A DNA stretch of 64,000 bases, from contig NZ_RJQC01000001.1 in NCBI RefSeq assembly GCF_003725415.1, positions 42,585-106,584 of the forward strand, written 5' to 3'. Positions 18,875-44,968 of this stretch are shown here, in pieces. Numbering within the stretch: the first letter of the stretch is position 1; each line of letters opens with the position of its first letter. The notes beneath the pieces were generated by a model. It made no database searches. It worked only from the letters and a program-made list of their open reading frames with translations, and was not told the origin of the DNA. A program made the position numbers and the translations under genes. Source of the stretch: Absicoccus porci. GTDB taxonomy: Bacteria > Bacillota_I > Bacilli_A > Erysipelotrichales > Erysipelotrichaceae.

Positions 18875-18897
18875 ATGACCATAAAAACAAATCGCTG

Positions 18898-19116
18898 ACT
18901 AGGAGAGTAAGCTTGACAGTAATTTCTAGCGAGATGGCACAGAGTGGAAGGCCATTAAATGAAGGCAAGCCCAAACGCACCTATGAGAGTCCAAGTGAAT
19001 GGAGTAGCTTGGAACGTTTCACCCACGTTACGGAGAAGAGGCCTTGTTTGAGGCAACTAAAGTGGTACCGCGTTGATAGCGTCTTTGGATCTTTGGATTC
19101 GAAGGCGCTTTTTTTC
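18898..19116 (+). promoter_or_regulatory. T-box leader, arginine-specific (specifier CGC)
   Basis: A full T-box regulator. Stem I base TAGG (18900-18903) pairs with CCTA (18980-18983); AGTA (18906-18909) is the loop E half; GCTTG (18911-18915) pairs with CAAGC (18966-18970). The specifier loop between them reads AAACGCA, giving the codon CGC for arginine at 18976-18978. The T-box core AGTGGTACCGCG is at 19061-19072, with TGGT to bind the tRNA end. Terminator: AGCGTCTT (19078-19085) pairs with AAGGCGCT (19102-19109) before seven T. Uncharged tRNA-Arg should allow read-through into argG. Confidence 0.93.
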
Positions 19117-40907: not shown

Positions 40908-42080
40908 TTGTGTGTCTATGGAAGTACGATTGTTTTAAATCCTATCTGGATGCAGTGGTATCACGAAAATATCAACAACACGACCTATCCGACTCAGCTA
41001 GAGACTTCTTTGTATTCCTATGCGAAAACGACGACTTTGTCCAACAAGAATAAAAAAGCGATTTCGAAAGCCATCCGTAAACACATGGATTTCTATGAAA
41101 GTGTCAGTATTCTCTATGATCAAAAGTTTATCAATGTGGATCATTCATCGAAACAAAGGAACTATCTACAATATATGAATGAGGATACGTTTGGCACGGT
41201 GCATACCTTTCAGGTACAATGGAAAAATCGCAAAACGTGGGTCTATGTCAATATGTATCCGGAATTGTATGACATGCAGGCAATAGAATACATAGAAATT
41301 GGCATTATTTTTTCTTTTTATGTTTTGATTCTGTATGGTTTTATGAAAAAGCGTGTACAAATCATTGAAAAGTTGACGCAGGATATTTCTTATTTGGAAA
41401 ATGGCGATTGGACGCATGCGATTGGTGTGGAAGGCCAAGATGAATTGGGGCGCTTGGCCCAACAAATTGATGAAATGCGATTGTATGCGTATGAGAATCA
41501 ACAAGCCGAACGACGAGCTAGCCAGGCCAATCATGATTTAATTACATCGATGTCTCATGATATTCGAACACCATTAGCGACATTAAAGGGGTATTTAGAA
41601 ATATTGTCGCTAAAAAAAGGGGAAGAAGAAAGGTAAGCGTTTTATATACAACGGTGTTTGAAGAAAACGGATGAGTTGATTGATTTATCCGAGGCGTTAT
41701 TTAAACAAAGTCTGCATGTATCCGATTCAAAAGAACTGCACATGGGCAAGATGGCCATTCAGGAAATCATTGCCTTATTGAATCAGATTGATGATCTCAA
41801 AAAACGAGGCTATGATATACAATTTGTGGATCAGACCATGCATGGCTGCATTGAAGGCAACTTGCCTTTGGTTCATCGTATTTTTAATAATTTATCCTCG
41901 AATATCATTAAATATGCGGATAAACAAAAACCGATCCATATATTGACCAAAGTTGAAAAGGGTGAATTTTATATCCGATTTGAAAACTATATTGCGTCTA
42001 CAAAAGATGTAGAAAGCAATCATATTGGTTTACAAAGTGTGCAGATGAGCATGAAACAACTACAGGGTTCTTGTTTATGA
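40908..42080 (+). pseudogene. Broken sensor histidine kinase
   Basis: Frame 40908-41636 gives an N-terminal membrane anchor, an extracellular domain, a second membrane helix (YIEIGIIFSFYVLILYGF), a HAMP-like stretch (ISYLENGDWTHAIGVEGQDELGRLAQQIDEM), and the phospho-acceptor motif MSHDIRTPLATLKGYLEIL with its His. It stops at 41634. Frame 41658-42080 continues with the dimerisation helix and an ATPase N-box (VHRIFNNLSSNIIKYA), then ends before the G boxes. A frameshift and a C-terminal truncation make it inactive. No response-regulator gene is beside it. Confidence 0.82.
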
Positions 42081-42143: not shown

Positions 42144-42149
42144 TACAAT
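42144..42149 (+). promoter_or_regulatory. Possible -10 of the leader RNA
   Basis: TACAAT at 42144-42149 lies 18 bases before the leader stems. No good -35 is at 17-base distance; a TTGACA at 42109 is too far (29-base gap). Weak call. Confidence 0.4.
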
Positions 42150-42164
42150 ACCGATACCTATAAA

Positions 42165-42290
42165 GAACGTGTTAGAGATTGGCTCGTAGCACGTACCAAC
42201 CTACAGAAATGCAAGGTGGTAAAGCCAAGATGATAGGTCCGTTTTCATATAGGGTCCTATCATCATCGATAGGGCTTTTCTTTTTTTAAA
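42165..42290 (+). promoter_or_regulatory. Unidentified pseudoknot leader with terminator/antiterminator
   Basis: Stems readable in the RNA: ACGTG (42167-42171) with CACGT (42190-42194); TTGGCT (42179-42184) with AGCCAA (42223-42228), which interleaves with the first stem and so forms a pseudoknot; ACCA-CCT (42195-42202) with AGGTGGT (42214-42220). Downstream, GATGATAGG-TCC (42229-42240) can pair with GG-GTCCTATCATC (42252-42264). The alternative GTCCTATC (42254-42261) with GATAGGGC (42268-42275) is a perfect 8-bp stem followed by TTTTCTTTTTTT. The two share CCTATC, so they exclude each other: an attenuator. It matches none of the riboswitch consensus sequences I can recall. Confidence 0.75.
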
Positions 42291-42302
42291 AGGAGGAACA
42301 AC

Positions 42303-42668
42303 ATGAAAACAAGAAGTTTAGAATCATTATTATCAAAGTATCCAGAAAAACGAATTTGGCTTTATTTAGGCGACCAAAAAACCAAAGATGAATTGATTCG
42401 TCAATTTTGTTTATTGAATGGCTTTGTTTCGTATGATGGAGAAGTTTTTGAAAATATCGACCTCAGAGAAGAAGAGCATGATCAAATTCATATGGTTGAT
42501 GGCAGAACGTTATATATCTATAGTCGTCAAAAGAATACAGGCCTTTTACACAATGTAGTTTATATCGATTTTAAAAAGTATGTAGAAAATCGTATTTTTT
42601 ATATCGTAAGTGAGGAAGAAACGAATCAACGATTGTGCGAGTTTCCCAATGGAATCAAATACATTTAA
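42303..42668 (+). CDS. Small protein of unknown function behind an attenuator
   Basis: 121 residues, charged, no membrane segment or signal peptide. Predicted alternating helices and strands (RIWLYLGDQKTKDELI, QIHMVDGRTLYIYSR, NVVYIDFKKYVENRIFYIVS). I do not recognise a family. AAAGGAGG stands eight bases before ATG 42303, right after the terminator T-run, so its expression depends on the leader. It converges with the acetyltransferase gene, 4 bases overlapping. Confidence 0.7.
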   Translation: MKTRSLESLLSKYPEKRIWLYLGDQKTKDELIRQFCLLNGFVSYDGEVFENIDLREEEHDQIHMVDGRTLYIYSRQKNTGLLHNVVYIDFKKYVENRIFYIVSEEETNQRLCEFPNGIKYI

Positions 42669-43519
42669 CGTGTCCAGACCGGATGCGTCAATTCTTGATA
42701 CAAGGTCTGGATACTTTTTAAGGTTGCATGACTAGCTCTGGCATAGAGTTTTGGATCGTTTAATCGCACCATCAAGGTTCTCGATTTACGAGGTTGATGC
42801 AAGGTATAATATTTTTCTAAATGCTCATTGGCACTGGTATGGATCCGCAGATGCGGATCTTTTAAATAGGTTAAAAAATCATCGATGGCAGAACTATCGA
42901 TATACCAGATTGTATCCATTGAATGATCCGATACGATCGCAACGCCTTTTTTGGTAGTCAATATTTTTTTCTTTCGGGCTAACTGATAACGCAAATAAGC
43001 TAGATATTGTTCGTGATTCAGGATGGGCGTGCCTTCAAAATGCTGCATAAATTGGGTATAGATGGCATAGGAATCCACAAACTTTGTCGATACGTTGGTG
43101 GGATGACCTTTCTTTTTGGGTTCGATCCATGCCACTTTCCCATAGGCAATCGACTGAAAGCGATGGTTTTCTAATAATTGGGGAAAATCGGTTTCACAAT
43201 AGGTCAAGACATGATTGTAGTGGCTTTGTTCCAAAACCACTTTGAGCAAGGATTTGAAATGGCCATGTTGCCGATGATTCGGATGGGTACAGGCCCATTG
43301 GATGCCAAGGGCAGAAACCATATGATCTTGTATTTGAATCTTGGTGGGTATGGTTTGAATCAAACTGATCAAATGCTCATTTTGCCAGAATCCATAGAGA
43401 TGATGCGAATCGTATTGATGCATCATCCAAGCTTGCACTTGAAAAGGTTCCCATTGGATCATGGAGACTTCTAAAAGTTGTTGGACCGCTTCGGCTTGCG
43501 GAGTACAGGTGGTGATCAT
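42665..43519 (-). CDS. Eis-like GNAT acetyltransferase
   Basis: 284 residues. The N-terminal GNAT part shows VSALGIQWACTHPNHRQHGHFKSLLKVVLEQ (about 67-98), the acetyl-CoA-binding region, and a second half resembling the C-terminal lobe of Eis-type multi-acetyltransferases. Substrate unknown. Translationally linked to the small membrane-protein gene upstream (4-base overlap). Confidence 0.78.
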   Translation of the reverse strand: MITTCTPQAEAVQQLLEVSMIQWEPFQVQAWMMHQYDSHHLYGFWQNEHLISLIQTIPTKIQIQDHMVSALGIQWACTHPNHRQHGHFKSLLKVVLEQSHYNHVLTYCETDFPQLLENHRFQSIAYGKVAWIEPKKKGHPTNVSTKFVDSYAIYTQFMQHFEGTPILNHEQYLAYLRYQLARKKKILTTKKGVAIVSDHSMDTIWYIDSSAIDDFLTYLKDPHLRIHTSANEHLEKYYTLHQPRKSRTLMVRLNDPKLYARASHATLKSIQTLYQELTHPVWTR

Positions 43520-44722: not shown

Positions 44723-44768
44723 ATGATTTACAATTGTTAATGAAAGTGATACACTGGGTTCAAATGAT

Positions 44769-44968
44769 AGAGGCGCAAAAAAGACACCGTAGAAAGGGAG
44801 TCGGCAGATGTTGATTTTCTATGGTAGCGATTTTGCCGAACTGCTTATTCAGGCATGGATAGGTGGTGGGCTTGCAGAGAAGATCTGTAAGACTGTCTAC
44901 CTTTGGTAGGAGAGCTATCTGATTGCCTTTCACGTAACCAGTAAGATAGCTCTTACTGGTTTTTTTTA
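44769..44968 (+). promoter_or_regulatory. Lysine riboswitch (L box)
   Basis: The aptamer opens with AGAGGCGC (44769-44776) and contains the conserved AGAAAGGGA followed by GTCGGC and TTTGCCGAACTG, and the later GCTTGCAGAGAAGATCTG region, as in L-box RNAs. Antiterminator: AGAGCTATCT (44911-44920) pairs with AGATAGCTCT (44944-44953), ten perfect pairs. Terminator: ACCAGTAAGA (44937-44946) pairs with TCTTACTGGT (44951-44960), ten perfect pairs, then eight T. Lysine binding should favour termination before lysA. Confidence 0.92.

Follow-up and report, generated by a model that had tools for sequence, protein, structure and literature searches.

The leader RNA of the gene under study is a SAM-I (S-box, RF00162) riboswitch that has diverged a little too far to reach the standard database cut-off. 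From its sequence we consider it highly probable that this is a form of the riboswitch lacking helix P4, and that it acts on one gene through transcription attenuation. The identity and structure of the aptamer and its association with the gene are shown by the data; the ligand, the direction of switching and the role of the protein are inferences. The leader and gene lie at positions 42144-42668 of the window, the whole 64,000-nucleotide stretch of DNA that was analyzed. The RNA is of a known kind, and the new points are confined to an undescribed protein family linked to the riboswitch and a possible double control in its relatives.

The match to RF00162 spans 42155-42255 and scores 40.4 bits (E = 3.7e-8 in cmscan with an E-value threshold, and 8.9e-8 when the whole genome is searched). 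The leader falls just short, by 4 bits, of the curated gathering cut-off of 44.4 bits and so goes unreported in a default Rfam scan of the window, whose only hits were a T-box and a lysine riboswitch, with no family above gathering at the leader. The T-box leader (RF00230, 105.6 bits) lies at 18886-19089 (+), and the lysine riboswitch at 44760-44925 (+), ahead of a diaminopimelate/lysine cluster (44983 onward) whose gene names were read from the translations. Four orthologous leaders, located ahead of genes for homologues of the window protein, score 51.6-57.6 bits with RF00162, all above the cut-off, and thus the SAM-I assignment does not depend on the marginal score alone. A family-specific covariance model of the P4-less form (R1), comprising 26 sequences with the window leader among them, gives the leader 66.9 bits (E = 4.2e-15).

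The original prediction had placed the leader outside the known riboswitches, and had itself named an Rfam search as the check on this; that search matches a known class, SAM-I. The default scan, with nothing above gathering at the leader, would favor a novel, unclassified riboswitch class, but this is refuted by the RF00162 match, by the orthologous leaders above the cut-off and by the association of the same aptamer form with metK, and has next to no chance of being correct. A candidate for a new class is removed, and it is clear that P4-less SAM-I aptamers can escape the default Rfam cut-off.

The elements of the aptamer are assigned as follows.

42155-42239 (+), SAM-I aptamer, P4-less form (R1 and RF00162 scores as above)
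42156-42161 (+), 5′ strand of P1, ACCTAT, pairing with 42233-42238 (fold, covariation)
42167-42194 (+), P2, formed by ACGTG (42167-42171) and CACGT (42190-42194) plus GAG/CTC
42179-42184 (+), 5′ half of the pseudoknot, TTGGCT (fold, covariation)
42195-42220 (+), P3 (ACC.ACCT / AGGTGGT), which contains the pocket for the SAM adenine, A42198 and U42217
42223-42228 (+), 3′ half of the pseudoknot, AGCCAA (fold, covariation)
42233-42238 (+), 3′ strand of P1, ATAGGT, common to P1 and the antiterminator (fold)

The interleaved ACGTG/CACGT and TTGGCT/AGCCAA stems from which a pseudoknot had been predicted are real, and lie where they had been placed. The P2 loop contains the 5′ half of the pseudoknot, and this is the P2-loop/J3-4 pseudoknot of SAM-I. 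The leader folds better than its shuffled sequences (z = -3.49), with 1 of 200 shuffles as good. Over the 26 related leaders, standard pairs make up 89.1% of the named structure, compared with 79.1% in shuffles; 17 pairs are changed on both sides, compared with 9.3 (0 of 500 shuffles), and slid registers give no more than 9. The pseudoknot helix, 42179-42183 with 42224-42228 in the window, shows 94.6% pairing over these leaders, with four of its five pairs changed on both sides. Covariation, which had been proposed as a check on the stems, is present in P1, P2, P3 and the pseudoknot alike.

The SAM contacts, and their numbering, are those of the crystal structure of SAM-I. The equivalents in the window are A42160-U42234, U42161-A42233, G42165, C42197, A42198, A42199, U42217 and G42218; all are present, and these positions are invariant in the 26 aligned leaders. 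The leader shares with SAM-I the P1 helix, P2 with the pseudoknot between its loop and J3/4, P3, the pocket, and the switching logic of P1, antiterminator and terminator; it differs in the missing P4, an altered kink-turn, the sub-gathering score and the unrecognized protein that it regulates.

Helix P4 is typical of SAM-I but is not required. It is absent here, with few bases separating the 3′ half of the pseudoknot from the 3′ strand of P1, and another P4-less leader (L033) still scores 53.9 bits with RF00162. Rfam places the 3′ strand of P1 at 42248-42255 and includes a P4; this placement was dropped, for the P4-less fold pairs exactly and fits all the relatives. Leaders of this Erysipelotrichaceae-like family have generally lost P4, whereas those of the sister family within the order retain the helix. 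The SAM-I/IV variant (RF01725) is also without P4 and has the same aptamer core as the window leader, and RF01725 does match the leader, at 29.6 bits (E = 0.0089). Yet RF00162 matches better over the same genome, and the RF01725 score is 11.5 bits below that family's own cut-off of 41.1. On the side of the variant, published SAM-I/SAM-IV RNAs combine features of both classes and have no internal loop in P2 (PMC2864571). Against it, the region downstream of P1 in the relatives was not seen to contain any additional conserved hairpin and pseudoknot. We consider assignment to SAM-I/IV instead of SAM-I very unlikely.

A kink-turn in P2 is typical of SAM-I. In the window its internal loop is altered to TTA / GTAG, without the standard tandem G-A, and the same gap is found in two further leaders of the 26. 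Taken with the sub-gathering score and the missing P4, this may mean that the affinity of the aptamer for SAM is reduced. One could go further, and suppose that a SAM-I-like aptamer has come by drift to recognize a different ligand, or has lost the ability to switch through decay. The RF00162 score, lower than in the orthologues, and the altered kink-turn would fit such a history, as would the loss from the window of a sequence complementary to the aptamer that four relatives carry before the Shine-Dalgarno sequence. However, all the known SAM-contact positions are intact, P1, P2, P3 and the pseudoknot all pair, and both antiterminator and terminator are preserved. Moreover, the same genome has a second SAM-I copy (L041), before metK, that scores lower still with RF00162 (34.5 bits), so that the low score is better seen as a trait of the lineage. 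We consider drift or decay improbable, and retain a SAM-responsive SAM-I aptamer as the preferred reading.

The aptamer is embedded in a compact transcription unit.

42144-42149 (+), probable -10 box TACAAT, preceded by TGT (possibly an extended -10); the -35 is weak
42229-42264 (+), antiterminator of 9 bp, 42229-42237 with 42256-42264
42254-42275 (+), intrinsic terminator stem GTCCTATC/GATAGGGC (42254-42261 / 42268-42275), followed by TTTTCTTTTTTT
42289-42296 (+), Shine-Dalgarno sequence AAAGGAGG (from sequence)
42303-42668 (+), gene for the 121-residue protein, with its ATG at 42303 and its stop ending at 42668; founding example of an undescribed family
42669-42718 (+), likely terminator downstream of the gene, TCCAGACC/GGTCTGGA followed by TTTTT (read from the sequence)

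TATAAT or TACAAT stands at the -10 place in all five orthologous leaders, and a sigma-70 scan found no full promoter in the 42144 region. The strong ribosome binding site that had been predicted is present. The likely terminator following the gene was not picked up by the consensus scan; with it in place this is likely to be a single-gene unit. Upstream, at 40908-42080 (+), lies a gene for a sensor histidine kinase (HAMP, HisKA) that has an in-frame TAA at 41634-41636, beyond which the frame continues to 42080; it is either a pseudogene or the result of a sequence error.

The terminator scan gives a match at 42251-42278, where 0.4 would be expected, and the antiterminator can be extended by pairing 42221-42226 with 42273-42278. 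The strand 42229-42238 can pair either with the 5′ strand of P1 or with 42256-42264, and the latter excludes the terminator. Antiterminator and terminator are mutually exclusive, as had been anticipated, since their strands overlap (42256-42264 and 42254-42275), and the same plan is found in the orthologous leaders. In the usual S-box plan P1 held by SAM leads to termination, turning the gene off. Here bound SAM would hold P1 (42156-42161/42233-42238) and block the antiterminator, whereupon the 8-bp terminator would form and transcription would end ahead of the gene. When there is little SAM, 42229-42237 would pair with 42256-42264, breaking the terminator, and the 121-residue protein would be made. 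Since the 3′ strand of P1 is shared in this way with an antiterminator that competes with the terminator, SAM should turn the gene off. Among riboswitch mechanisms in Firmicutes, transcription attenuation predominates (PMC2258182). The alternative folds differ little in energy (-25.9 against -22.4 or -26.8 kcal/mol, computed without pseudoknot or ligand). The U-run also follows the long form of the antiterminator, which ends at 42273-42278 and could itself be a terminator; the sequence therefore does not reveal how strong the off/on ratio is.

In four relatives (L062, L063, L095 and L096) the sequence CTCTTTATAGG before the Shine-Dalgarno sequence is an exact complement of the 5′ strand of the aptamer, CCTATAAAGAG, and can pair alternatively with the Shine-Dalgarno sequence itself. 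The complement is 10-12 bases long, L095 being one base shorter. Of the five small-protein leaders, only that of the window is without it, but one this long occurs in just 1 of 47 metK leaders; the four leaders carrying it are related to each other and not independent. This suggests that there may be a second, translational layer of control in the relatives. A switch before the Shine-Dalgarno sequence is unsupported in the window copy (z = -0.2). It is possible, if rather doubtful, that riboswitch and protein form a SAM-starvation module whose small proteins are a new family and whose riboswitch, in the relatives, acts twice, by termination and by the pairing of CTCTTTATAGG with CCTATAAAGAG or with the Shine-Dalgarno sequence in the read-through RNA. 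If so, SAM would block translation in the relatives besides causing termination.

The regulated gene had been called unrecognized, and it is: searches of Pfam and NCBIfam gave no match, and no relative of the protein was found in phage and plasmid collections, IMG/VR or the PDB. A single-sequence search with the window protein found no relatives in 98 genomes, and doubtful matches only in 273. One of these (36% over 46 residues) sits directly behind a SAM-I riboswitch, and a two-row profile of it with the window protein gave three more homologues (E = 2.6e-26, 2.3e-15 and 2.0e-12). There are thus four homologues, with E-values from 2e-50 to 2e-12 using a profile that contains one of them, and no further strong homologue among 316 genomes of the order. 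Their records include uncultured Faecalitalea and Candidatus Merdibacter. Other weak protein matches (L032, L036, L065-L085 and L091-L094) are probably due to chance; none of the ones checked is preceded by a SAM-I riboswitch.

A SAM-I riboswitch lies directly ahead of the gene in all five members, from four genera including that of the window. Whether the protein family always follows the leader had been raised as a check; every strong homologue found does so, but the reverse does not hold, as most SAM-I copies of the bacterial family precede metK. The neighboring genes vary from case to case (a MATE-type transporter, an ABC transporter, a methyltransferase and a histidine kinase, all but the last read by eye from translations), and so the conserved unit is the riboswitch with the protein. 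The protein is real and belongs to a small undescribed family of a few gut bacteria, made, we infer, under shortage of SAM or methionine. This provides a testable clue to the family, whose expression would be expected when SAM is scarce, the same condition as for SAM synthetase. As a working guess, the cell may need it under SAM shortage as a small protein with a binding or regulatory role.

Structure prediction for the window protein gave a useless model (pLDDT 39). For the Faecalitalea homologue, of 94 aa, the model is fair (pLDDT 86.5) and shows a small alpha/beta fold, for which there was no match among the solved structures of the PDB. This fold weakly resembles those predicted for small uncharacterized phage proteins (BFVD A0A1S5R1R0 and I6R9N2; Foldseek probability 1.00, E 0.003-0.01, TM about 0.5), and one homologue has a weak sequence match to phage proteins of phrog_17589 (E = 0.002), whereas the window protein has no significant sequence relation to the phage proteins.

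RF00162 is found in 51 of 60 related genomes, usually as one copy and usually before metK, encoding SAM synthetase, and a copy matching R1 is present in 230 of 273 genomes of the family. No paper on SAM riboswitches of the family came up in literature searches. The metK leaders share with the window the P4-less aptamer and the antiterminator/terminator platform; they differ in controlling SAM synthetase and, with one exception among 47, in being without the complement that precedes the Shine-Dalgarno sequence in L062, L063, L095 and L096. Elsewhere, a second SAM-I riboswitch, bearing P4, precedes a different 120-residue protein (L014 in G034, 1501-1596, -); this protein looks similar by eye, but hhalign gives 2% probability and homology is not supported. 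A P4-less SAM-I riboswitch (L056 in G024, from 1052, +) stands before an ABC-transporter-like gene instead of metK.
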